Of a DNA stretch of 64,000 nucleotides, positions 1 to 55,555 are shown piece by piece (position 1 is the first letter of the stretch; the number at the start of each line of letters is the position of its first letter). The notes below the pieces were generated by a model that worked only from the letters and a program-made list of their open reading frames with translations, made no database searches and was not told the origin of the DNA. The stretch comes from Escallonia rubra (taxonomy: Eukaryota; Streptophyta; Magnoliopsida; Escalloniales; Escalloniaceae): the NCBI GenBank assembly GCA_033065855.1, contig JAVXUO010002832.1:259001-323000 (forward strand), given 5' to 3'. The position numbers and the translations under genes are program-made.

Positions 1-364
1 TCTGAGGACTTTCAAGAGCATGTATTATGATCTATCTAACCATTATTGATCGGGAAGAGCAAAAGGATGGTTGAGAGGAGTGGAGAGCAAAAACAAAATG
101 AATCGATAGCAAGAAGGATGAGGAGAATTGAAACCTGGTGGATAGTTACGGCGGCGATCGGCGGGCTGGAGGGTGTGAATAGATACGAAGAGATCCAATT
201 TGAGATTACAATTCAGGATATCAAGATATAAAAAGCGTCTTTACTCTAATTTGGGTTATAAGGCGACGGTAGTGCTTTTACCGTTGGTACACATGCACAT
301 ATACTGACGGTGCCGAGAGCACCGTTGGCATTTTCGTGGGGCCATCTCATATTTGTTGTAGTGA

Positions 365-1430: not shown

Positions 1431-2272
1431 CCACTCTATTTTCAATGTACCAGTAACAAGCTCTAAAACTTCAAAATATCTGTTTCAATTTCTTTTCTAT
1501 TTGCATCAAGAAGGCAAGTTCTTTTATTAGCAATGTCATACCCCGAAAATATCGGAAATTAATCTAACCGTGAGTATGATTAATTAAAGGGTGCTATGTT
1601 TATTAAGTCGCAATATGTTGGTGATAATTAAGTGTTAGGGAGCTAAATAAGGGGTTAGTGTGGCCTTGGGGGTTAAAATATAATTTTGAAAGTTAAGGAG
1701 CAAAAATGTAATTTTGTAAAATATGGTGAATGGGATGCATATTTTTATTAAGTAGCATCATTACAATGATAATGATGTGTTAGGGGGCTAAAGGAGGCGT
1801 TAGGGTGATTTTGGGGTCAAATTATAATTTTCCCAAAGTTGAGGGGTCAAAATACAATTTTGAAAACTTAAAGGGCTAAAGTGCAAATTGTTGAAAGTTG
1901 TAAAAGGTGTCACAATTGGAGAGAAGACAGCCGAATGGTGGCCACCTCCTGATTAAAATTGGGCTGACTAAGTATGGGAAAATAATAAAATAAAGGGGGA
2001 TAAGGTTAATGAGGTTAAATTATAAAAGAAAAGTTTTGGGGTGCAAAATAAAAAGAGAGGAAACTTAAGAACAACCTGAAGAACACGAACAGAAAAGGGA
2101 AACCAGTGGGAAAGAGGAAAAAAAGAGAAAAAAAGAAGAAGGAAGAAAGAGGAGAAGAAAGGAAAGAAAGAAAGAATTGTGAATTCATCAGGGTAATCCC
2201 CCGATCTTGAACCCTTAATCGCGAAATTGTGAAGGAATTGAATTGAATTTGGCTGAACATATGTGACATACA

Positions 2273-2273
<1 letters not shown>

Positions 2274-2316
<43 letters not shown>
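2274..2316. repeat. (TG)n(TA)n microsatellite left of the MITE
   Basis: Alternating TG then TA dinucleotides directly abut the left end of the MITE. Confidence 0.9.
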
Positions 2317-2317
<1 letters not shown>

Positions 2318-2539
2318 GGGAGCTGATCCGTTGCCCGCGCTAGCAACTTAACCCAAGTTGCTAGCGCGATCTGGCCGTCCACGGTCGAGAATGGACGGCC
2401 AGATCGCGCGTCACGCCCAGTATTTTTTTCACCCGTCCGCTACATAATATAGTGGACGACGAAAAACCGTCCGCTACATAATGTAGCGGACGGCCAAACA
2501 GCGCTAGCAACTTGCTAGCGCTATCAACGGATCAGCTCC

Positions 2540-2541
<2 letters not shown>
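2317..2541. mobile_element. 225-bp MITE with 17-bp terminal inverted repeats between inverted microsatellites
   Basis: The ends TGGGAGCTGATCCGTTG (2317-2333) and its exact complement (2525-2541) are inverted repeats. The interior holds further hairpins: GCTAGCAACTT near 2339 pairs with a copy near 2355, a GATCTGGCCGTCC palindrome lies at about 2369-2405, and CCGTCCGCTACATAAT repeats follow. There is no coding capacity. The left flank is (TG)n(TA)n and the right flank is (CA)n(TA)n, so the flanks are also near-inverted. This recalls microsatellite-targeting plant MITEs such as rice Micron, but the family is not assigned. Confidence 0.8.
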
Positions 2542-2594
<53 letters not shown>

Positions 2595-2595
2595 G
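2542..2595. repeat. (CA)n(TA)n microsatellite right of the MITE
   Basis: Alternating CA then TA dinucleotides directly abut the right end of the MITE, in the orientation inverse to the left microsatellite. Confidence 0.9.
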
Positions 2596-3589
2596 CTTCG
2601 TTTGTGTATATATGTTTCAGGGATGGGAAACATTGGATGGATTTTTGTTGTAATTGTGTAATATGAGAGCTTGGAATAGCAAAAATATGAAAATTGATCA
2701 AGATTACATGTTCGTACAGTGCTCAATGTGCGTGGGTGTGTGTTTATCATGTGTGTTCTTCAAGTTGGTTAATGGGTATGGATTTATATCGGAGTAATGA
2801 TGTAAATTAAGTGGGTTTAGGGTGTTAATGCGTAGATTGCAATGTAATGAGGTGATTAAAGTGTGTAAAAATGGGAGGTTCATGCGTGGGTGTGGTGGTG
2901 TGCCTGGTGATGCCAAGGAAAGCGGGTTCGTACTTACGTGGACGCAGGACACATCAAAGGTGGAACAAGGGCAGAAACCAAGGGCTTCCCAAACAGAGCT
3001 TGAGGGTGGCAGTGCTGCGAGGGCGATAGCGCAAGATGAATACACGACGACAGTCACAGTCTGATGCTTAGGTCCAGAGTCAAGGTCCTGTATGTTTCTC
3101 TCTCTTGGATTCTAGAGTGAGAAAGTGAAAATGTGAGAGTCCTGAAAATGTCCAACCTCCATGTCCCCTCTTAAATGAATTCTAAAGACCTCTATTTATA
3201 GAGATTGAGACGATGATGTCATTAACCGACACGTGACGCTCCCCGGGAGTGACACGTCACCCGGGGGTCCACGGGTGCCGGTGCTCCAGGGACTGTCGGA
3301 TCGCATATTCACCCGGCCTGCCCCACACAGCGTCGCTCTGTCTGTCTGGAAAGACTGGCTCCCACAACGTCAGTGTGGCCAGAGAATCCCCTTGATCTAG
3401 CCTCCAATCCAAGCCCTTGCAGAGTCCCACAGGCCTGGCAGCGGTGGGGAAGACCCGACGCCCAACTGCCAGGTGAACTAGGCGCGATGCCCTCCGAAGA
3501 CCTACTCCCATCTCGGAGTGACCCGGGGGTCATAGTCCCTAGGGGTGCCGACGCAAGCCCCCAGTGCCGGAGCACGTAGGCCAGTCACG

Positions 3590-4110
3590 TAGACACCCTG
3601 GCGGAGATAGTGTCCCGGAAGAGTCGCCTATTCCGCAGGCCGAGGTAGCATCCCGGAGGAGCCGTCTACCTGGCCGGCGAAGGTAGCATACCGAAGGAGC
3701 CGTCTACCTGGGAGAAGGGAAGTCTTCGTGCCGGAGCACTTGGAGCTCCCTGGTAGAGATAGTGTCCTGGAGGAGTCGTCTATCCCCGCGGGTGAGTCCT
3801 TGTGCCGGAGCACTCAGAGCGCGTCAAGGTAGCATCCCGGAGGAGCCGTCTACCCGACTGGCCGAGGTAGCATCCCGGAGGAGCCGTCTACCTGGCGAAA
3901 GGGGAGTTGAAGAGCTCCCTGGCGGAGATAGTGTCCCGGAGAAGTCGTCTATCCCCACGGGTCAGTCCTTGTGCCGGAGCACTCGGAGCATGTCAATGTA
4001 GCATCCCGGAGGAGCCGTCTACCCGACTGGCTGAGGTAGCATCCCGGAGGAGCCGTCTACCTGGCGGAAGGGGAGTTGAAGAGCTACTTGGCGGAGATAG
4101 TGTTCCGGAG
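3590..4110. repeat. Tandem repeat block GTAGCATCCCGGAGGAGCC
   Basis: Motifs such as GGTAGCATCCCGGAGGAGCC and GAGATAGTGTCCCGGA recur several times in higher-order units of roughly 140-180 bp. The block lies in the U3 of the solo LTR and recurs inverted at 46490-46840 and partly at 55310-55555. Confidence 0.85.
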
Positions 4111-4417
4111 GAGTCGCCTATCCCCGCAGGATGTTGCACACTCCGGAGAGTGGGTCGAAGCATGTTCCACGACCAAGGCAAGGTGCGCATGGTGTGGTGC
4201 CCGGGGGGCATGTAACATGATTGTGGCGCATGGACGCGATGAAGTGATTAAGGTGTTGGGGGCACGTCTGTGTTAGTGGCGCGGCACATGGATGCGACGG
4301 AGTGTGTATGGTGCCGGGGGCATGGTAGTGTGATAGAGAACCTGGGGGCACGGTTGTATCAGCGGCGCGGCGCACGGGCGCGGCGGAGTGTTGAAGTGCG
4401 ATGCCCGGACGCCGGCG

Positions 4418-4985
4418 ACGGGGGTCGCGGAGTTGTGTCCGGGCGACGGGGGTCGCGGAGTTGTGTCCGGGCGACGGGGTCGCGGAGTTGTGTCCGGGCG
4501 ACGGGGTCGGGGAGTTGTGTCCGGGCGACGGGGGTCGCGGAGTTGTGTCCGGGCGACGGGGTCGGGGAGTTGGGTCCGGGCGACGGGGTCGCAGAGTTGT
4601 GTCCGGGCGACGGGGTCGTAGAATTGTGTCCGGGCGACGGGGGTCGCGGAGTTGTGTCCGGGCGACGGGGTTGGGGAGTTGGGTCCGGGCGACGGGCGTC
4701 GCGGGGCGACAAGGTCGCGAAGTTGTGTCCGGGCGACGGGGGTCGCGGAGTTGTGTCCGGGCGACGGGGCCGCGGAGTTGTGTCCGGGCGACGGGGTCGC
4801 AGAGTTGTGTCTGGGCGACGGGGTCGGGGGGTTGGGTCCGGGCGACGGGGGTCGCGGAGTTGTGTCCGGGCGACGGGGTCGCGGAGTTGTGTCCGGGCGA
4901 CGGGGGTCGCGGAGTTGTGTCCGGGCGACGGGGTCGCGGAGTTGTGTCCGGGCGACAAGGTCGCGAAGTTGTGTCCGGGCGACGG
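4418..4985. repeat. 27-28-bp GC-rich minisatellite, about 20 copies
   Basis: The unit GTCGCGGAGTTGTGTCCGGG plus GCGACGGG recurs about 20 times with small changes. Because most units are 27 bp (9 codons) or 28 bp, several frames on both strands stay open for 200-300 codons. These open frames are arginine/proline-rich repeats and should not be read as genes. Confidence 0.95.
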
Positions 4986-5049
4986 ACGATGAGGGTCACG
5001 GACGATGTAAGGCCTCTTGAAGAGTAGTGAATGTGTTAAGTATGGAGAC

Positions 5050-5250
5050 CAAAGGCCAACCCATAGGGGAAGTCCAAGGCCAACGCCAAGGGAAGGCCGA
5101 GGCCGACCCCCAAGGGGAGGCCGAGGCCGACCCCATAGGGAAGGCCGAGGCCGAGGCTGACCCCATAGGGAAGGCCAAGGCCGAGGCCTACCCCAAGGGG
5201 AAGGCCAAGGCCGAGGCCGACCCCAAGGGGAAGGCCAAGGCCAACTTCCT
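5050..5250. repeat. Minisatellite of GGCCGAGGCCGACCCC units
   Basis: Imperfect 24-36-bp units built from AAGGCCGAGGCCGACCCC with AAGGGG or ATAGGG spacers. It lies in the U3 of the solo LTR. An inverted copy lies at about 44690-44880 in the related LTR. Confidence 0.9.
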
Positions 5251-6599
5251 TGGGTAAGTGCCATGGTGCGCCGATGGGCGACATGCGAAGTGCGACGGTC
5301 GAAGTGTCATGAGGCTTTGCGCGAAAATGAGCTTCTTAATGACGAAGTAAAGTAACGAAAGTGAGAAGTGCACGTGACTTGAGCGTGCATGCTTTGGCTG
5401 GTTGTGAGCGTTGAAAATGACTGTTGCTTGTACGGATGTGTAATGGAAAATGGGACCCCAGTGGGCCTTTGGGTGCGACCAGAATAGGTTGGGAACACCT
5501 GGTATGTGACGGGCTGAAGGAGGAAGATGAAGAGTGTGTGAAGCTGAGGTGAAATACTAGGTGTAATTATCTGAATAGTAACTTGTAATCATTGCTAAAG
5601 ATGAAAATTCAAGTGAGCAATTCTAATCTGATTTTTTTAAAATAGTTAGGGTCAGATTTATCCAAAGTACAAAACAAAGATCCTAATTATTTTTAAGAGA
5701 TCTCCATCATGGAAAAATTCTGGATTTTTCCAAGGTCAGAAAGGGGGTGAACGAATGTGGTGATTTTTGGAACTTTATAGTGGAATTTAAAATATCAAAC
5801 GAACTCTGTTTTGTGCGAAAATTTTATGGAGACCTTAGGATGCTGAGGAGTTCCATTTCTCAAGATATTAGGTCATTCCGAGGTCATTAGCTATTTTTGG
5901 CCAAACAGGCTTTTAAGCGCTCGGTTCAGACACCGATTCAAAATTTTTTGGCGAAAAAATTATAAAATACGTTTTAGCTCAAAAATAATTTCAAGATGCT
6001 TAAAAATAGTGTTTTAAAGTAGTTTTGAGATTTTTTTGGTGCTGGGAATCCTCAGGGGGGGATTTTGGTAAATTACCGCCAGGAGATGAGTATTTTGGTA
6101 ATTTTCTCGATAAAATTTTCCAAGGGACTTGTTAGTCCGGGAAGAGTTGTAAAACACCTGAAAGGTTGTTTTGAGGCAGATTTGGGGTGTTGGGGTGGTA
6201 GTGAACCCTCAGGGGGTATTTTGGTAATTTACCGCCCATAAGGGTTATTCTGGTAATTTGCCATGTTGAGGCCAAATTTTTGGGAACCCGCGTTATTAAG
6301 CGTCCAGAATGGTGAGAAGTGAGGAATGGTGTTAATACATTGGAAATGAGATGGTTGTTATCGCTAATGCGTCGATAAGGCTAGGTTAAGGATCCAGTTA
6401 TTGGATCGGGTTAACTGGCTGTCATAAAACGCTATGAGCGGTTAAATGGGAAGGCATAGAATAAGGAGTGCATATATGTTGAATGATGTCTAACGAGCAG
6501 AGTACTATTAGTCTAGGTGAAGCAGCTCGTTGTGATCAGAGATTGCGAGTTGCTTTGGCTATAAGCCAATCAAGTAAGAACAATGCAGTTCTATTATGC

Positions 6600-7250
6600 T
6601 AATTCATTGTTTCGATTAGCATACCATGTTGACGACGTTTATGTTGGACTCTTGTTGTTATGAGTTGACACCAGTAGTCATTGTGACCGGTATACGTATA
6701 TTTGAATTGTGTTGTTGAGGACTTAGGGTAGAATAATTCCTTTAGTCCGCCCTGTTGATAGAATTTAATGAGGATGAGGCATGTCCTAGTATGCTATGAT
6801 TTGACTCGATTACCATACCTGACGTTAGGGGTGATATTGTGTAGGTGTTATTGTGTGGTTGTTGTGAGATGTTGGCAATTATTGGTAGCCAATATCTATT
6901 CTCTTTTAGAACACCATTGAGGACTTGTGGCAAACTTCTCCCGAGTCCGCCCTATCGTTGATGATGATGTTGTAGAGATCGTTGTGTTGTTGTTGTGAAA
7001 TGTCGGCACTTATTGATATCCGACATTTCTCTTATGTAAGAACATTGTTGAGGGCTTGCGACATACTTTTCCCAAGTCCGCCCTGTCTATGATGTTATGT
7101 TGAACTCTTGTTGTTTGCTTGGAATACCGGTTGATCTTTTAATCCGGTATTCTTTGTTGAGTTGTGTTGTTGAGGACATATGGTGGAATAATTTTCCCTT
7201 AGTCTGCCTCGTTGATAAAGCATCGTTGTTTAGCTGTAACGTGGTTAGGG
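6600..7250 (+). repeat. Diverged tandem repeat, roughly 120-190-bp units
   Basis: Phrases such as TTGTTGAGGACTTAGGGTAG, CATTGAGGACTTGTGGCA and TTGTTGAGGGCTTGCGACAT, each followed by AGTCCGCCCTGT, recur about four times. The copies are strongly diverged. The block lies inside the LTR-type element at 1534-8197. Confidence 0.6.
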
Positions 7251-8202
7251 ACAAACACTCATGGTGAGTCCCCTCTTGTTGACAGTGTCTCTCTTAAACT
7301 ACTTGAGACTGAGATGAACACCCCATGCAATGGGGCATCAATGAGTTGAATACCAGTGAAAGTGGAGTAACTGGTGACCAGTGAAAATAAAGTAACTGGT
7401 AGTCAGTGAAAATTTAAGTAACTGACAAGGAGGATGAAGCGCGCTAGAGTCTGTCAGTCGAGTCTACATTTACAGTTGATTTTAATTGATGTTGTTGATT
7501 TTTACTATGTACGTTTCCTATGATTAATGTTTTTTTATTGTTTTCTTTTGCATTACACTTGCATAGTCAATGTCTGTCGTGTCCCTGTCCAAGTTGAAAT
7601 GATGATGTTCTGTTGGGCCTTGAAGCCGCTCAGTTTGATGAAGGAAAGTATCGTTCGACAATTATGCTGATGTCGAAAATTTATTGGAACTCTTGATTCA
7701 TTGCTATCGTTGAAATGATTATTATTCCTTTGAGTCTCTTGAATCATTTGTACACGATACTCCTCGTGTTGTCTTTACTAGGTGATTTGTGTTCATTCCT
7801 TATGTTGTATTGTGCAGGCTATAAGGTTGATCAAGGAGAATCCTCTAGAAAGGAAAAAGAAACAAGCTAGAAAAATTGAGCAAGGGGATCAGTTGTGTGA
7901 GGTAAGATCAGCTAGGAATGGTGGGATAAAGATTGAGTTGCGAGATAGGTTGATAAGAGTTCTACGACTATAGTCGTATATTAGGTTGTAAACATTCATG
8001 TTGTTTAAAGACCTTAAAGTCTTCCGCTGCAGTACGATGTATGTTTGTAAAAAAAAATCGTAAGGACGCATTTTGGAGCATCTATTAATGATGTATGAGT
8101 ATGAGGATATAGTTGTTCTGTATTCAGCACAGGGTTTTGAATGTGATATTGATCGATAATTCAGCCCGGTGATGTCACCAGGGTTGAGGGTCTCGCAAGC
8201 AA

Positions 8203-10083: not shown

Positions 10084-10756
10084 TAGCTATGGCCTATGGG
10101 TGACTTAAAATATTGTGTGTTAATTAACTTATGACTTATTATATTAAGTGGTAGAAAAAATGCGTTATCAAACGCACTTAATTTGAAATCGTTGAAAATT
10201 TTCAGTTTTAAGTGCTGAATTGCGTTATCAAACACACCCTTAGATTGAACTAATTAAGCTACTACTAGCTAAAATCTGATGTCATATACGGAGACATCAG
10301 TCTTATGCAGTTGATGATGTATGGACAGCTTACTAACGACTTAATTATCAAATAAGGTTCATCAGTGATGGTAGCGGACGCATCAGGTTGCACCGTACAG
10401 AAGTTTTAAGTTATATGGACAAGACCATCATTCTGTGATTGCTTAATCAAAGGAAGTGATATTTGAGCTCTATTTTTCTACCATTTGAGCCATGTTTTCA
10501 AAGCTATAGACCTTAAAGTGTCAATCTACAGCAACTTTAGCAACAAAAGTAAAACTCAAATAAGAGAAGTAATATTTGAGCTCCATTTTAAGATATACCA
10601 ACATTTCATGGGCCCATAAGACTTTCATTTTCATATTACCAAATGTAACTTCTACTTTGCAAAAGAAATAGACATTGCAAAATAGTATTCTCAATCTACC
10701 GGCCTTGCGGCCATAGAAATCCTTGTGTACATGCTGCCTTTTCAGTCTGGACCCGC
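10084..10756. other. Intergenic, possible MITE end near 10150-10240
   Basis: TGCGTTATCAAACGCACTTA (about 10160) and GCGTTATCAAACACACCCTTA (about 10213-10233) look like MITE-type termini, but a complete element cannot be delimited. Nothing else was recognised. Confidence 0.35.
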
Positions 10757-11224
10757 TTTATTGTAATGCCCCGAAATATCTGAAATTCCATTGCTCCGGA
10801 CCTCTGAGGCGTTAACTTATAACATCACACAGATCAGAGCACCTGTCATAATTTCAGATCCTTAAAACAATATAACATTAAGTTTTTCTAACAACATAAA
10901 GTTCCACACAAGGAATTCCAAGCTTAAGTTGTTACAAACTTGTACATAAGTTCTTAACAGGCCCACGCAGGGGTCCTATTTACACAGACTAGGATAGCTG
11001 CCCTTAAGGTCTTACCCGATGCTAGCTCTTCCCCACGCAAACTACAACTGAGGGCTACCTGCAAAACAAAATAATTAAGGGTGAGCTTTTGAGAGCTCAG
11101 TAAGGTCGTTCAAACGAAGAAATTACAAAATATTTCACACATGCAATTCAATGATAATTTTTCAAGAGTTTTAAAAGAATCATAACTAATTCGATGCAAA
11201 CAATCACATATACGATGCAAACAA

Positions 11225-11460
11225 TCACAGATACACCGACTAGTCCATCAAGGAACTAGGCCACACCAATGCACCGACTAGTCCATCAAGGTACTAGACC
11301 ACACTAATGCACCGAATAGTCCATCAAGGTACTAGCCCACACCAATGCACCGACCTCATTCCGTAAAGTAGAATGATCGAACACAACGCAAGATCAAGGT
11401 ACTAGCCCACACCAATGCACCGACTAGTCCATCAAGGTACTAGCCTACACCAATGCAAAA
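11225..11460. repeat. Minisatellite in the left arm, roughly 36-38-bp units
   Basis: Units of CACACCAATGCACCGACTAG plus TCCATCAAGGTACTAGCC recur about five times with one interruption. The inverted counterpart in the right arm is at about 16310-16500. Confidence 0.85.
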
Positions 11461-12402
11461 TCTCATGCCAATTAACAGCGACAACAAACGATAATACATT
11501 GATTACATCGAAGCACAACGAGAAATAAATACAGAGCATCAAATAAGGTTTCCAATAAACGTGTAAGGCACAAAACAGGACATTAAGGGCAAATAATGCA
11601 CATTCCAACTATAACGGAGTTCAACAAAAATTTGATAACAATTCAGAAAAATAGACGAAGATAATTTGATGACTGAGTTTCAGATAGAAGTTTCTTACCT
11701 GATTCACAGCTACGGTATTCTAACCAAAAAAATCCTTTGCTTTAACCTAAATGGAACAGTACAAAGATTAGAATGTAGCTTACATTACTGTATTATAACT
11801 CACATTTAACTCATACACAGTCCCAGAACGACCCCCTCACCGGATGTGTAAAATTATTACAATGCCCTTGGGTTTTTGGCACCCAAAAAATCTCAAAAAT
11901 ATTTTAAAATACTATTTTAAGCATCCCGAAGACATTTCTGGGCTAAAAAGTATTTTAAGAAATTTTTGCTTGAAAATCCCGAACCGATGTCTGGACCGAG
12001 CGCTTAAAAGTCAGTTCGGCTAAAAATACCTATCGGCCTCAGAATGGTACGAAATTTTAGATACTGAATCATATCAATAAATAAGGTTCTCCTAAAATTT
12101 TCATATTAAAATAACTTAATTTACTATGCCAAATAGTTTGATAATTTTAGTTAAGCGATACTCTAATTTAGCACCCTTCGCGGTCACCGAAAATTCCCAA
12201 AATATTTCAGAGCGTATGTCTCGTAAAAATATTGAGGGTTACAGTTTTGCACTTTGTCTAATTTTCTCCCTAACTATTTATAAAAATTTATTAAAAAACT
12301 GTCTAATTTATTCCTACCTTTAGTGACAATTACAGTCACTATTTAAATTAGGGCACATACTAAAACACCTTAGAAACTCACACTTTCTTCTACCTTCAGC
12401 TG

Positions 12403-13858
12403 ATGCGGCATATTTTCCCACACACTACTCCTGCAGCTCACCAATGCACCCTACAACCACATCAATTCATGCCTAACATTCACAAACACCCATCTATACA
12501 CCTAACATATTCAAATTCATACCATCACTCACCCACAACACACATGAACACACACCACCCAATCAGTCACACACACGCACACCACAGTCAAGAACACATA
12601 CTCAGCTTACACCGAAACACACACTAACTCACAGATTACACCCTCACACCATTTGCTACCAACAAGATTCATCCCCCCCCCCCCCTCACACACAACACAT
12701 GAATTACAACATTCACATATATACATACACAACCCAACTCACAGTCGTGATCCATCTCACACATAGAACCCTCCAAAACACGCACCAGGCAGTAGAGAGT
12801 ACACACACTAAATAAAGATACACGCATAAATAAACAAAGAGGTTCCCCTTACAATTTCTCTCTCAATCTATCTCTGATTTCTTTGAGTTTTTCTGCTCGA
12901 AATCCCTCTTCTTCCCCCTGTTTCCTTCCTCACTCTCCCTATTTTTTCTTCTTCTATGTTTCTTTGTTGTTCTGTTAACTGCTTGCCTGGTCTCTTCTTT
13001 TTTCTTTCTTCTGTTCCTCTTAGCTTCTCTTTTACTGCTTTCTCTTCTTCCCTTTTTTTTTTTATCATCTGAGGCTCCCTTATCCCCCAAGACCCATTAT
13101 TAAATCATTTAACATAGTTTTTTTCAAGCGCGAATCTTTCAAGTGCGTTAAAAATATTTTTTATTTCTAAGCGGCAATAAAGGATTTAATTGTGGGTCTT
13201 GGGGGATTAGGGGGACTTGGGAGATAAAAAAAAAAAAAAGAGAAAGCAGTAAAAGAGAAGCTAAGAGGAACAGAAGAAAGAAAAAAGAAGAGACCAGGCA
13301 AGCAGTTAACAGAACAACAAAGAAACATAGAAGAAGAAGAAACAGGGGAAGAAGAGGGACTTCGGGCAGAAAAACTCAGAGAAATCAGAGATAGATTGAG
13401 AGTGAAATTGTAAGGGGAACCTCTTTGTTTATTTATGAATGTATCTTTATTTAGTGTGTGTACTCTCTACTGCCTGGTGCGTGTTTTGGAGGGTTCCGTG
13501 TGTGAGATGGATCACGGTTGTGAGTTGGGTTATGTATGTATATATGTGAATGTTGTAATTCATGTGTTGTGTGTGAGGGGGGGGGGGGGATGAATCTTGT
13601 TGGTAGCAAATGGTGTGAGGGTGTAATCTGTGAGTTAGTGTGTGTTTCGGTGTAAGCTGAGTATGTGTTCTTGACTGTGGTGTGCGTGTGTGTGACTGAT
13701 TGGGTGGTGTGTGTTCATGTGTGTTGTGGGTGAGTGATGGTATGAATTTGAATATGTTAGGTGTATAGATGGGTGTTTGTGAATGTTAGGCATGAATTGA
13801 TGTGGTTGTAGGGTGCATTGGTGAGCTGCAGGAGTAGTGTGCGGGAAAATATGCCGCA
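12403..13858. repeat. Inner hairpin of the fold-back element
   Basis: Bases around 12403-13100 and their complement at about 13190-13858 are almost identical. The same 74-residue open frame is read from 12403 on the plus strand and from 13859 on the minus strand, which shows the near-perfect inversion. Each arm contains a homopolymer run (C near 12672, G near 13577). A further, slightly more diverged pair lies at 14035-14586 and 14657-15190. The open frames are low-complexity His/Thr/Pro or Lys/Arg strings and are not genes. Confidence 0.9.
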
Positions 13859-16309
13859 TCAGCTGAAGTAGAAGAAAGTGTGAGTTTCTAAGGTGTTTTA
13901 GTATGTGCCCTAATTTAAATAGTGACTGTAATTGTCACTAAAGGTAGGAATAAATTAGACAGTTTTTTAATAAATTTTTATAAATAGTTAGGGAGAAAAT
14001 TAGACAAAGTGCAAAACTGTAACCCTCAACACACATGAACACACACCACCCACTCAGTCACACGCACACCACAGTCAAGAACACACACTCACCTTACCTT
14101 GAAACACACACTAACTCACATATTACACCTTCACACCATTTGCTACCAACAAAATTCATCCCCCCCCCCCCCCCCTCACGCACAACACATGAATTACGCC
14201 ATTCACATATATACATACATAACCCAACTCACAGCCGTGATCCATCTCACACACGGAACCCTCCAAAACACGCACCAGGCAGTTAAGAGTACACACACTA
14301 AATAAAGATACACACATAAATAAACAAAGAGGTTCCCCTTACAATTTCACTCTCAATCTATCTCTGATTTCTCTGAGTTTTTCTGCCCGAAGTCCCTCTT
14401 CTTCCTCTGTTGCCTTCCTCTCTCCCTGTTTCTTCTTCTTCTATGTTTCTTTGTTGTTCTGTTAACTGCTTGCCTGGTCTCTTTTTTTTTCCTTCTATTC
14501 CTCTTAGCTTCTCTTTTACTGCTTTCTCTTTTTTTTTTTTTTATCATCCAAGGCTCCCTAATCCCCCAAGACCCATTATTAAATCATTTATTGCCGCTTA
14601 GAAATAAAAAATATTTTTAACGCGCTTGAAAGATTCGCGCTTGAAAAAAACTATGTTAAATGATTTAATAATGGGTCTTGGGGGATAAGGGAGCCTCAGA
14701 TGATAAAAAAAAAGGGAAGAAGAGAAAGCAGTAAAAGAGAAGCTGAGAGGAACATAAGAAAGAAAAAAGAAGAGACCAGTCAAGCAGTTAACAGAACAAC
14801 AAGGAAACATAGAAGAAGAAAAAATAGGGAGAGTGAGGAAGGAAACAGGGGGAAGAAGAGGGATTTCGAGCAGAAAAACTCAAAGAAATCAGAGATAGAT
14901 TGAGAGAGAAATTGTAAGGGGAACCTCTTTGTTTATTTATGCGTGTATCTTTATTTAGTGTGTGTACTCTCTACTGCCTGGTGCGTGTTTTGGAGGGTTC
15001 TATGTGTGAGATGGATCACGACTGTGAGTTGGGTTGTGTATGTATATATGTGAATCTTGTAATTCATGTGTTGTGCGTGAGGGGGGGAGATGAATCTTGT
15101 TGGTAGCAAATGGTGTGAAGGTGTAATCTGTGAGTTAGTGTGTGTTTCGGTGTAAGCTGAGTGTGTGTTCTTGACTGTGGTGTGCATGTGTGTGACTGAA
15201 TGGGTGGTGTGTGTTCATGTGTGTTGTGGGTGAGTGATGGTATGAATTTGAATATGTTAGGTGTATAGATGGGTGTTTGTGAATGTTAGGCATGAATTGA
15301 TGTGGTTGTAGGGTGCATTGGTGAGCTGCAAGAGTAGTGTGTGGGAAAATATGCCGCGGAAGCTGAAGGTAGAAGAAATTGTGTGTTTCTAAGGTGTTTT
15401 AGTATGTGCCCTAATCTAAATAGTTACTGTAATTGTCACTAAAGGTAGGAATAAATTAGGCAATTTTTTCAATAAATTTTTATAAATAGTTAGGGCCAAA
15501 ATTAGACAAAGTTCAAAACTGTAACCCCTAATATTTTTACAAGACGTACACTCGGGAATGTGTCGGGAATTTTTGGTGCCCGTGAAGGGCGCTAAATTAA
15601 AGTATCGGTTAACTAAAATTATCGAATTATTTGACATAGTAAACTAAGTTATTTTAATTTGAAAATTTTAGGAGAACCTTAATTTATTGATATGATTCAG
15701 TATCTAAAATTGTGTACCATTCCGAGGCCGATAGATATTTTTAGCCGAACTAGCTTTTAAGCGCTCTATCTGGACACCGATTCGGAATTTCAAGCAAAAA
15801 TTTTATAAAATACTTTTTAGCCTAAAAATGACTTCAGGATGCTTAAAATAGTATTTTAAGATATTTTGGGAATTTTTCGGTGCCGGAAACCCCTAGGGGC
15901 ATTTTAATAATTTTACACGTCTGGTGAGGGGATCATTCTGGAACTGTGCGTGAGTTAATAGTGATTTATAATACAACAATGTAAACTACATTATAATCTT
16001 TGGACTGTTCCATTTAGGTTAAAGCAAAGAATTTTTTCGGTTAGGATACCGTAGATGTGAACCAGGTAAGAGACTTCTATCCGAAAGCCAATTCATCTAA
16101 TTGTCTTCGTTTATTTTTTTGAATTGTTATCAAATTTTTGTTGAACTCCGTTATAGTTGGAATGTGTATTGTTTGCCTTTAATGTCATGTTTTGAGCCTT
16201 ACACGTTTATTGGAAACCATGTTCGATACTCTGTATTTATTTCTCATAGTGCTTCGATTTAATCGATGTATTATCGTTTGTTGTCGTTCTGTTAATTAGC
16301 ATGAGGTTT

Positions 16310-16500
16310 TGCATTGGTGTAGGCTAGTACCTTGATGGATTAGTCTGTGTATTGGTGTGACTTAGAATCTTGATGGACTAGTCAGTGCATTGGTGTGGGC
16401 TAGTACCTTGATGGACTGGTCGGTGCATTGGTGTGGGCTAGTACCGTGATGGACTGGTCGGTGCATTGGTGTGGGCTAGTATCATGACGGACTACTCGAC
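16310..16500. repeat. Minisatellite in the right arm, roughly 36-38-bp units
   Basis: Units of GCATTGGTGTGGGCTAGTAC plus CTTGATGGACTGGTCG recur about five times, the inverse of the block at 11225-11460. Confidence 0.85.
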
Positions 16501-17000
16501 ATATCTATGATTGTCTGCATCGTATCTAAATTTTTTCTTTGATATCTGATCGAACTAGTTACGATTCTTTTGAAACTCTTGAAAAATTATCATTGAATTG
16601 CATCTGTGAATTATTTCGTAATTCTTTCGTTTGAGCGACGTTACTGAGCTCTCAAAAGCTCACCCTTAATTGTTCCGTTCTGTAGGTAGCCCTCAGTTGT
16701 AGTTCGCGTGGGGAAGAGCTAGCGTCGGGTAAGACCTTAAGGGCACCCTAGTCTGTGTAAATAGGACCCCTGCGCGGGCCTGTACAGTTAGTGTGCTTGT
16801 TAAGAACTTATGTACAAGTTTGTAACAGCTTAAGCTTGGAATTCCTTATGTGGAACTTTATGTTGTTGGAAGAACTTACTGTTATGTTGTTTTAAGGATC
16901 TGAAATTATGACAGGTGCTCTGATCTGTGTGAAGTTATAGGTTAACGCCTCAGGGGTCCGGAGCAATAGAGTTTTGGATTTTCCGGGGCGTTACATTTAT

Positions 17001-17464
17001 AGTAGTTTTTGGTGCAGGTGCAGATCGAGACAAAGCTACTATAATGGATTGAAAAAGAGAGGGAATAATGTAGCACCGTAATCAGAACCTAATGATTCTA
17101 CGAGCAAATGGCTATGTTGCCGACTTCCTTCCCTTAGAAAATGTAGTGAATTGCTTCCTAAAGCTAAAGTTAGGAATGACATAAGGGAATCCGATTCAAC
17201 TCTCACAGTAGATGGGCTATCTCGCATACATTGCGATTAACGGAGTAATTATTAAGAATCACAATTTAATATCCACGACGCATACTAAGTTATTCATCAA
17301 TATTATGATAGCAAATGATCCATTTACGTTGTGTGCAAAGTTTGATCTTGGTTTAGACATGGCCCTATGCATAAAGCGGTATGAACATAAAATGAGCTAT
17401 TTTAATACACTGTAGTTTCTATATGTAACATTCGTAACCTTAGATTTTCAAATTGAAAGAAATC
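17001..17464. other. Intergenic, nothing recognised
   Basis: AT-rich sequence between the fold-back element and the LINE fragment. Short frames only, none with a recognisable domain. Confidence 0.5.
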
Positions 17465-44449: not shown

Positions 44450-46842
44450 GGCTTCACCTATTGTTGCTACCTTCATGAGGTCACTATTGGGTCTTTCCAC
44501 AAGCAACAATCAATATTCAACGCTCACAACCGGTCAAAGCATGCATACTCAAGTCACGTGCACTTCTTATTTCTTCTACGTGACTTCGTCACCAAGAAAC
44601 TCATCCTTGCGCGACTGCTCATCACGCTCCTACCGTCGCACATCGTCCGTCGCCTGTTGGCGTACCATGGCACTTGCCCAAGGAAGTTGGCCTTGGCCTT
44701 CCCCTTGGGGTCGGCCTCAGCCTTGGCCTTCCCTATGGGGTCGGCCTCGGCCTCGGCCTTCCCTATGGGGTCGGCCTCGGCCTCGGCCTCCCCTATGGGG
44801 TCGGCCTCGGCCTCCCCTTGGGGTCGGCCTCGGCCTCCCCCTAAGGGTCGGCCTCGGCCTCCCCCTATGGGTTGGCCTTTGGTCTCCATACTTAAAACCT
44901 TCATTTCTCTTCAATGGACCATACATCATTCCGCGACCACGTCGCCCGGACATCACTCCGCGACCACGTCGCTCGGACGTCACTCCGCGACCCCAGTCGC
45001 CCGGACGTCACTCCGTGACCCCGTCGTCTAGACGTCGCCCGCGCGCCAACTCTGCGACGCTCGTCGTCCGTCGCCCGGATGTCATCTCCGTGACCCCGGT
45101 CACTGGCGTCCGGGCGTCGCACTCTAACACTCCATTGCGCCCGTGCGCCGCACCGCTAATACAGCTGTGCCCCCAGGCTCTCTGTCACACTACCGTGCTC
45201 CCGGCTAGGGATGGCAATGGGGCGGGTCGGATACGGATCTGATAAAATCCGAACCCGCCCCGCTAGTTATGAAACGTTGCCCTGCCCCGCCCCGCCACCG
45301 GGTTCTATTTATAGAATACCATAACCGATCCTATGTGAATCTAGGAGACCCGCACCCGCCCCGCCCCGCCTCATTAAGCATTACATTCCATAAAAACCCT
45401 ATCTCTCTGGGGCAATTTATCAAACAGCCAGCGTGCATTGTTTATACTATCATTTCCAGCATAACACTCAACCAAAGGACTACCCACATACACATCTACC
45501 TCAAAACCCACATACACATTTACCCACATGCTTTGGATGGTGTTAATGCCGATGGAGCGGCAGACGCAATGTGTAAGATGTTCCTATAAATCGACTATCC
45601 AGTTGGAACAATGATAATTCTTCTACAACAAAAATACACCTTCAAATTGTAGATCGTAGACAGCCCTTTTCATAAACCAAAATCGACCAGATTGTTTCAG
45701 AAACGGCGGGTACCAGCGGCTTCTCCGTCGTATCTAGGCCGAGACTTCGGCTCCGTCTCGGTGCAACTTCTCCGTTGATGTCGGCAGATCTGGGAGGGCA
45801 TGAGATTGAAGTGAGTTGCTATTATTCATGGAAGGTAAATGAGAGAGAGAAAGAGAGACGGACAGAGAGGAGAGCAGAAGACAGCCGAGAAGAGAAGTCG
45901 CAGAGAAGAGAAGACGCAACGGAGTGGCAGAGAAGAGAAGACGCAGCGGCGCCGGTGGCTCTTTGGAGTCTGCAGAAGAAGAGAGCGCCGAGTGAGAGAG
46001 AGAGAATAGATGATCTAGGGTTTTAGTTTAGGACAAAAGCTTATATATATTACATGATGGACGGCTAGGATTAACTATGTATAGGGTATGTATATCGGGG
46101 CGGGTACGGGTCGGATCACGGGGCGGGTTAGGCAGAATACCATACCCGATCCTAACCCGCTGCGGGTTTTAAAAAAATTTACCATACCCGCTCCGTGACC
46201 CGGTCAAAGTCAACATAATCCGCTCCTATAGGAGCGGGGCGGAGCGGATATCCTGCGGGTGCGGGTTGAATTGCCATCCCTACTCCTGGCACCATACGCA
46301 CTCCGTCGCGCCCATGCACGGCGCCACTAACACAAATGTGCCCTCGGCACCTTACTCACTTCATCGCGCCCATGCGCCATAATCATGTTACATGCCCCCC
46401 GGGCACCACACTCATTCACCACACCATGCGCACCTTGCCTTGGTCGTGGAACATGCTTCGACCCACTCTCCGGAGTGTGCAACATCCTGCGGGGATAGGC
46501 GACTCCTCCGGGACACTATCTCGGCTAGGCAGCTCCTCAACTCCCCTTCCGCCAGGTAGACGGCTCCTCCGGGATGCTACCTCGGCCAGTCGGGTAGACG
46601 GCTCCTCTGGGATGCTACCTTGGCGCGCTCTGGCACAAGGACTCACCCGCGAGGATATGCGACTCCTCCGAAACACTATCTCCGCCAGGGAGCTCTTCAA
46701 CTCCCCTTCCGCCAGGTAGACGGCTCCTCCGGGATGCTACATCGGCCAGTCGGGTAGATGGCTCCTCCAGGATGCTACTTTGACGTGCTCCGGCACAAAG
46801 ACTCACCCGCGGGGATATGCGACTCCTCTGAGACACTATCCT
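44450..46842 (+). mobile_element. LTR piece of the 2908-5497 family, inside the LINE 3' UTR
   Basis: Plus-sense homolog of the solo LTR at 2908-5497. It has the same order of leader (44487-44690), GGCCTTGGCC minisatellite (44690-44880), GTCGCCCGGAC repeats (44935-45120) and GGATGCTACCTCGGCCAG repeats (46490-46842). Both ends appear truncated and no target duplication is visible. The region corresponding to the TATA box and R/U5 is missing. It is interrupted by a hAT element at 45206-46282. This is a broken fossil. Confidence 0.75.
45206..46282. mobile_element. Non-autonomous hAT-like element, 1.08 kb
   Basis: The ends TAGGGATGGCAATGGGGCGG and (complement) TAGGGATGGCAATTCAACCC are inverted repeats of the hAT type. 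The flanks CTCCCGGC (45198-45205) and CTCCTGGC (46283-46290) form an 8-bp duplication with one mismatch. The subtermini are packed with CGGGT/ACCCG and GCGGG motifs. The interior 45690-46020 is GA-rich; on the minus strand it reads like a plant 5' UTR (AAACCCTAGATCATC then CT repeats). No transposase is seen. Confidence 0.9.
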
Positions 46843-54625: not shown

Positions 54626-55555
54626 AAAAGATGCCAAGGAAAGTGGGTTCGCAGTGCTTCGTGGAGGTGCCACAAGGAATACAGTCCGAGTCAGATGCCA
54701 AATGTACTGATGTGAGACACAGCAAGGGTGGAACAAGGGCAGAGACCAAGGGCTTCCCAGACAGAGCCTGAGGGTGGCAGTGCTACGAGGGCGATGGCGC
54801 AGGATGAATATACGACGACAGTCACAGTCCGATGCTTAGGTCCAGAGTCAGGGTCCTGTATGTTTCTCTCTAGGATTCTAGAGTGAGAAAGTGAAAATGT
54901 GAGCCTCTTGTTTGTGTCCAACCTCTAAATGAATTCTCAAGACCTCTATTTATAAAGATTGAGATGATGATGTCATTAACTGACATGTGTCGCTCCCCGG
55001 GAGTGACACGTCACCAGAGGGTCCACGGGTGCCAGTGCTCCATGGACTGTCGGATCTCATATTCACCCGCCCTACTCCTCACAGCGTCACTCTGTCTTTC
55101 TGGAAAGACTAGCTCCCACAGCGTCGGTGTGGCCAGAGAACCCCTTGATCTAGCCTCTAATCCAAGCCCTTGCAGAGTCCCACAGGCCTGGCAGCGGTGG
55201 GGAAGACCCGACGCCCAACTGCTCCCATCTCGGAGTGACCCGGGGGTCATAGTCCCTAGGGGTGCCGACGCAAGCCCCCAGTGCCGGAGCACGTAGGCCA
55301 GTCACGCAGACACCCTGGCGGAGATAGTGTCCAGGAGGAGTCTCCTATTCTGCAGGCTGAGGTAGCATCCCGGAGGAGCCGTCTACCTGGCAGAAGGGGA
55401 GTCTTTGCGCCGGAGTACTTGGAGTTCCCTGGCAGAGATAGTGTCCTAGAGGAGTCGCCTATCCCCGCGGGTGAGTCCTTGTGCCGGAGCACTCGGAGCA
55501 AGTCTAGGTAGCATCCCGGAGGAGCCGTCTACTTGGCGGAAGGGGAGTTGAAGAG

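Follow-up and report, generated by a model that had tools for sequence, protein, structure and literature searches.

We analysed a window of 64,000 nucleotides from Escallonia rubra (contig JAVXUO010002832.1 of assembly GCA_033065855.1, positions 259,001 to 323,000 of the forward strand); positions given below without a contig are those of this window. At 10762-16995 the window holds a palindromic element of 6,234 bp, made of long terminal repeat (LTR) sequence in inverted order, with the termini TGTAATGCCCCG...CGGGGCGTTACA seen in the sequence and the pentanucleotide TTTAT directly outside each end. In a self-comparison, 10762-13731 was an inverted copy of 14022-16995 (89.5% over 3,025 columns), and each half contained a nested hairpin: 12232-14029 matched itself at 91.8% in the left half, and 14022-15231 matched itself at 87.0% in the right half. 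The three longest inverted pairs measured 383-524 nt at 95-98%, far above chance. To name the parts of the element, the solo LTR in copy L009 (5832 down to 3411, 2,422 bp) served as a ruler. BLASTN against this LTR resolved four LTR pieces, here called S1 to S4, in the order (-)(+)(-)(+), with the internal domain absent. No open reading frame (ORF) of more than 83 amino acids was present within the element when ATG, GTG and TTG were accepted as starts. The features of the element are as follows; U5 and U3 denote the unique 5' and unique 3' sides of an LTR.

10757..10761, unstranded: left target-site duplication TTTAT, read from the sequence
10762..13116, minus strand: S1, LTR 2422 to 262, its left outer end being the U5 end (BLASTN against the L009 LTR)
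13113..13116, unstranded: left tip join CATA, from LTR 262 (-) to LTR ~18 (+)
13118..14029, plus strand: S2, LTR 18-81 followed by LTR 267-1202
13731..14022, unstranded: unpaired loop at the centre of the palindrome, ~290 nt (self-comparison)
14027..14029, unstranded: centre join, CAA common to both sides, from LTR ~1202 (+) to LTR ~906 (-)
14030..14650, minus strand: S3, LTR 906-267 followed by LTR 82-18
14652..14655, unstranded: right tip join TATG, mirroring the one on the left
14652..16995, plus strand: S4, LTR 262 to 2422, its right outer end being the U5 end
16996..17000, unstranded: right target-site duplication TTTAT, read from the sequence
11234..11457, minus strand: 38-bp tandem repeats within the LTR sequence of the left arm
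16310..16498, plus strand: 38-bp tandem repeats within the LTR sequence of the right arm

The two tips are oppositely oriented, 13118-13181 corresponding to LTR 18-81 (+) and 14586-14650 to LTR 82-18 (-). S1 and S4 end at LTR 262, while S2 is without LTR 82-266 and S3 without LTR 83-266. In L009 this stretch of ~185 bp is bordered by TAAAT on each side; it may have entered as a small insertion, with the TAAAT pair as its 5-bp duplication, or S2 and S3 may have lost it. A preliminary description of this DNA had reported a palindrome with inverted LTR arms, nested inner hairpins and TTTAT flanks, and self-comparison and BLASTN bore this out. The symmetry it claimed holds for the inverted arms, but the palindrome is inexact, since the central loop is unpaired. 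Likewise, the arms had been taken for the 3' halves of LTRs; they are indeed derived from LTRs, but they are nearly whole ones (2422 down to 262).

The source family was traced by homology searches over the 566,129,122-base assembly (3,222 contigs), in which the best 40 of 5,453, 1,654 and 2,156 candidates were scored for copies of the family. The LTR of one relative, L012, matches all four pieces of the element. Between its LTRs, L012 has matches to the Ty3_capsid, RVT_1, RT_RNaseH, Integrase_H2C2 and SH3_Tf2-1 models, and because these internal pieces match Ty3-type protein models, we assign the source family to Ty3/gypsy. In L012, an LTR end of the type found at the outer ends of the element is followed by GT and TGGTATCAGAGCT, which we take to be a tRNA-iMet-type primer-binding site; the opposite LTR end (6189) stands after a purine-rich run. 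Since the primer site adjoins the equivalent LTR end in L012, both outer ends of the element are U5 ends. An ordinary LTR element has its LTRs in direct order and one U3 and one U5 outer end, whereas this element has U5 at both.

The relatives of the element carry target-site duplications of the same length. In the four relatives with both ends read, the 5-bp duplication was exact in three (GAAGC at C1367:49184-58906, where the 5' LTR is reduced to its two ends; AGGTT in the C1294 copy; ATACA at C2664:520036-530033) and agreed at 4/5 bases in the fourth (CTGCT/CTGTT in the C2375 copy). The element thus resembles the elements and solo LTRs of its family (C1367:49184-58906, C2375, C1294) in LTR sequence, U5 end and 5-bp duplication, and differs in its outer ends, which in those copies are U3 on one side and U5 on the other. 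An RNase H piece adjoins L009, which might suggest that it is the 3' LTR of a complete copy; however, CTGCT/CTGTT stands on both sides and points to a solo LTR inside another element. Some copies occur twice in the assembly. L010/L011 on C26 and L012/L037 on C1367 are the same insertion with matching flanks on two contigs, their 3' LTRs being 93.6-97.1% alike; judged from the sequences, the two are haplotypes, or the assembly contains a segmental duplication here. C1613 and C1614 likewise hold near-identical copies.

An insertion step is indicated by the TTTAT pair, on which it rests. The chance of a 5-bp match between the flanks was 0.0014 with the local base make-up and 0.0011 with that of the whole window. 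Farther out, one older repeat makes up both flanks: 10449-10625 on the left (extending to 10688 in one case) and ~17218-17330 on the right. Both flanks were collinear and in the same orientation in 4/4 fetched paralogues of this host repeat (L033-L036, the four contigs listed with matches to both flanks; other listed contigs match one flank only). The sequence nearest the element (10689-10761 and 17001-17217), the ~290 bp absent from L034, may be a further nested insertion.

The flanks also bear on an origin within the chromosome, in which an ordinary LTR insertion would have been made palindromic by microhomology-mediated template switching during replication, followed by exchange between the arms. 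The 3-4 bp of shared sequence at the joins suit this mechanism, some arms look as if later exchange occurred, and switching of this kind could well explain the extra central 1.49-kb copy even if it did not form the first palindrome. However, an inverted copy made in place would not stop exactly at the U5 boundary beside a direct TTTAT and a collinear host flank. It is disfavoured because the right side shows the direct TTTAT and collinear host sequence instead of the reverse complement of the left flank, and we consider such an origin of the palindrome unlikely.

At the left tip, the join has the sequence AATCATTTAA-CATA-GTTTTTTTCAAGCGCG; reverse-complemented, this is exactly the join at the right tip. 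An identical mirrored join at both tips is therefore the mark of one event that was later copied. A 30-mer over the tip join, with at most 3 mismatches allowed, was found once forward and once reverse in the 566-Mb assembly, both times within the element, and the reversed control gave 0 matches. A 310-bp query over the left tip and a 170-bp query over the centre join found no other match that crosses the join among the best 40 of 50 and the best 40 of 923 candidates scored, respectively. As far as these searches reach, the arrangement looks like a singleton, and the element looks like one old copy rather than a new transposon family. The preliminary description had suggested looking for further copies in the same inverted order; a mobile fold-back family is unsupported, the tip join having been found inside this element only. 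Two integrase-type ends and a target duplication are what a non-autonomous fold-back family spread by the LTR integrase would show, yet with no tip join found outside this element at up to 3 mismatches such a family has hardly any chance of being the explanation. The part of the earlier proposal in which an LTR unit was rearranged into a palindrome and inserted fared better: with U5 at both outer ends and one direct 5-bp duplication, the element was most likely inserted in palindromic form.

Two other places were inspected as possible counterparts and rejected. Sites of the end motif TGTAATGCCCCG number 95 forward and 101 reverse across the assembly, and other LTR families have the motif as well. 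The only forward-then-reverse pair of this motif less than 10 kb apart among the places listed, C413:128020-134814, has direct LTRs and no match to the element. C2664:518255-530033 had the look of a second head-to-head pair, and proved to be a full insertion (target-site duplication ATACA) nested in an older inverted LTR.

Taken together, the anatomy, the U5 sequence at both ends, the TTTAT pair and the identical mirrored joins lead us to favour a single insertion of an aberrant, palindromic Ty3/gypsy complementary DNA (cDNA) with two U5 ends, to which we give a probability of roughly 60%. For the way in which this molecule arose, and for its later history, we infer a step in reverse transcription, integrase acting on two U5 ends, and conversion. 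Our candidate mechanism is more tentative, and we rate it at somewhat below even odds: two minus-strand cDNAs served as each other's primer over a 4-base match close to the U3 end, and integrase inserted the resulting palindrome with a normal 5-bp duplication. The two minus-strand DNAs would each be primed at the tRNA site and would hence carry U5 at their 5' ends. Their 3' ends would meet inside U3, one having halted near LTR 262 (...AACATA) and the other near LTR 18 (...CTATG). These ends would pair through the 4-base match CATA/TATG, whereupon each would be extended on the other. The product would be a linear, full duplex of two head-to-head LTRs, with U5 on both sides and no internal domain, and no opening of a hairpin would be needed before integrase joined it to the target and TTTAT was duplicated. 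The 1.5-kb centre would be duplicated in inverted order at the 3-base match CAA, either by snap-back during that reaction or at a later time, once in the chromosome; the later variant would consist of a tandem duplication of 12531-14025 and a flip of one loop. Afterwards, the inner arms S1, S2 and S4 would exchange sequence by conversion. Because the two strands may stem from different RNAs, the mechanism has no need for a single source LTR.

The divergence between the arms was compared with that of an ordinary LTR pair of the family, L010/L011, the two LTRs of an insertion on C26, which agree with L012 in their outer flanks. With the L009 LTR as reference for the projection, S1 and S4 were 89.1% identical in the outer arms, over LTR 1422-2422 (a value that uses about half of the S1 columns, 542 of 992), against 89.0% for L010/L011. 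The inner arms over LTR 266-1182 were 96.7% identical, against 91.7% for the ordinary pair, again with L009 as reference. In a full alignment, the outer halves of S1 and S4 agreed at 88.5% over 1,073 columns. Over LTR 1196-1430, the divergence K was 0.128 for S1/S4 and 0.196 for L010/L011. Provided that the arms started out identical when the element inserted, a substitution rate of 1.3e-8 per site and year would put the age of the outer divergence at roughly 4.5 million years.

The divergence is unevenly spread. The difference-free runs reach 309 and 162 nt between S1 and S2 and 252 nt between S1 and S4. S1 and S2 are 99.3-100% alike over LTR 747-1196, while S1 and S4 are 98.7-99.3% alike over LTR 449-746. 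The simplest reading of this mosaic suggests patchwise conversion among S1, S2 and S4 after insertion. The long S1/S2 runs might also confuse an assembler, and mirrored or chimeric long reads, or collapsed copies, could in principle have produced a palindrome by misassembly. The outer pieces, however, differ by 197 substitutions over 2,313 columns, and a direct target duplication with collinear flanks is not expected from a mirrored read. On this sequence evidence a mirrored-read artefact appears unlikely, and misassembly of any of these kinds has, in our estimate, only a slight chance of being the explanation.

Several observations weigh against a single palindromic insertion, and they are set out here together. 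At the insertion site, the 5-bp match may be due to chance (~1 in 700), and a 700-nt query of the joined flanks found no exact empty site spanning the insertion point among the best 40 of 57 candidates. About 290 bp around the insertion point are without a counterpart in the deletion-type paralogue L034; the paralogues L033, L035 and L036 have different, longer sequence there. The tip joins deviate from a plain snap-back, S2 and S3 being without LTR 82-266, and the searches of the assembly found no second insertion of this kind. The comparison of ages is softened when the reference is changed: with L016, the outer arms stand at 88.0% against 89.0%, and with L012, over a longer stretch, the inner arms stand at 92.9% against 90.5%. 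S3 was not homogenised with the other pieces (K of 0.081 to S1, 0.074 to S4 and 0.057 to S2, where the ordinary pair has 0.08-0.09). Trees of the outer halves pair S1 with S4 at 87/85 (15 rows) or 82/86 (14 rows), neither value being starred, and the two share only 2 states exclusively in the 14-row set. Over LTR 906-1196, S4 lies nearer to L010 (path 0.038) than to S2 (0.052), and over LTR 1196-1430, S1 and S4 are unpaired and each is nearest to L009. Judged by their sequences, these last two stretches argue against one common source, or else point to copies having mixed.

These trees differ in what they include. In the 15-row tree, S1 is represented in about half of the columns (it has 411 of 810 in common with S4), L015m is out and the columns of the 38-bp tandem repeats are cut; the 14-row tree uses full sequences, with L015m and L023 out. 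Both were built without L014, a twin of L013, and, among the fetched copies, without those of another subfamily and those with no outer half. In the inner regions, the four pieces group together weakly over LTR 300-906 (65/72), and S1 and S2 pair at 99/98 over LTR 906-1196. The true LTR pair L011 versus L010/L012 was unrecovered in both outer-half trees; in the 14-row tree these copies fall within one five-row group at 96/93. Because a true pair is also unrecovered, the tree test is low in power in this star-like family.

The same comparisons bear on an origin from two insertions of the family, in opposite orientation and adjacent or nested, that later lost their U3 sides and internal regions, with TTTAT arising by chance. 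Nesting in opposite orientation does exist in this genome, an older inverted LTR being the host of C2664:520036-530033. Many pairs of family copies diverge about as much as the outer arms do, and there are stretches over which each outer arm resembles another copy more closely than its partner. Such an origin nevertheless requires the chance 5-bp match (0.0014), and the tip joins must become identical and mirrored through further duplication. Moreover, by nesting alone, one of the two outer ends would still be U3. We therefore judge two separate insertions to be rather improbable.

Known systems offer partial parallels to the element. Plant fold-back DNA transposons, Mutator-like and others, have long inverted arms and a target duplication; the present element is unlike them in that its arms are LTR sequence, its ends are TG...CA and its duplication is 5 bp long. 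DIRS-type elements have inverted LTR-like terminal repeats and a tyrosine recombinase, and are not known to make a target duplication. The element shares the inverted LTR-like ends with them, but it has a target duplication and its ORFs do not exceed 83 amino acids. A closer parallel is found in the template-switching complexes of grasses, flanked by target-site duplications, of which two come from ~7 Mb of Triticeae sequence and one each from rice and maize (Sabot and Schulman 2007, PMC1950507). In these complexes an internal third LTR lies between two complete internal regions, all in direct order, and the outermost LTRs are highly similar, as they come from one reverse transcription (PMC1950507).

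Like those complexes, the element combines aberrant template switching during reverse transcription, which we infer here, with one flanking 5-bp duplication and outer LTR ends that integrase can use. Unlike them, it is inverted, has no internal region and carries U5 on both sides. With regard to the similarity of the outermost LTRs, its outer halves at 88.5% are near an ordinary LTR pair of the family, the support for S1 with S4 ranges from 82/86 to 87/85, and the two do not pair over LTR 906-1196 or LTR 1196-1430. By this analogy, the element appears to be an inverted, two-U5 variant of already known template-switching insertions. Among the literature matches listed (titles and abstract openings, with few subscription papers covered), none gave an account of an inverted U5/U5 LTR insertion.

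If the proposed origin is true, the element is a natural record of a plant LTR-retrotransposon integrase inserting a molecule with two U5 ends, and the U3 end is unnecessary for concerted integration. LTR-only palindromes would then be a class of by-products of reverse transcription, missed by annotation pipelines that are based on direct repeats. They would also be a one-step source of large genomic palindromes and of templates for hairpin RNA.

Three copies of TATAAATA, presumably a promoter motif, lie in the element.

12275..12282, minus strand: TATAAATA in S1, pointing outwards to the left
13979..13986, plus strand: TATAAATA in S2, directed into the palindrome, unlike the other two
15481..15488, plus strand: TATAAATA in S4, directed outwards

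Transcription starting in S2 would run through S3 and S4. As RNA, 14022-15010 has a predicted fold of -567.8 kcal/mol, compared with a mean of -208.5 for 20 shuffles; this predicted value is a measure of pairing capacity, common to any inverted repeat, and not of function. The LTR block at 11703-12403, which includes TATAAATA, is ~80% shared with many LTRs of another subfamily (e.g. L019, L020, L027 and L028). The LTR element reported at 1534-8197 had been named as a relative of the palindrome that its hairpin RNA might silence. Some match between them exists, but it is confined to four stretches of 68-185 bp at 69-79%. Among self-matches of at least 150 bp, none formed a terminal repeat pair for 1534-8197.

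Other repeats lie elsewhere in the window. Just before the feature at 1534, a 172-bp unit stands twice in tandem at 1086-1430 (98-99%). G+C-rich blocks of tandem repeats occupy 3643-5431, 44499-46840 and 54716-55532, the second being inverted to the others, and are probably parts of other LTR elements. The blocks at 3643-5431 and 44499-46840 have units of ~27-30 and 160-170 bp.

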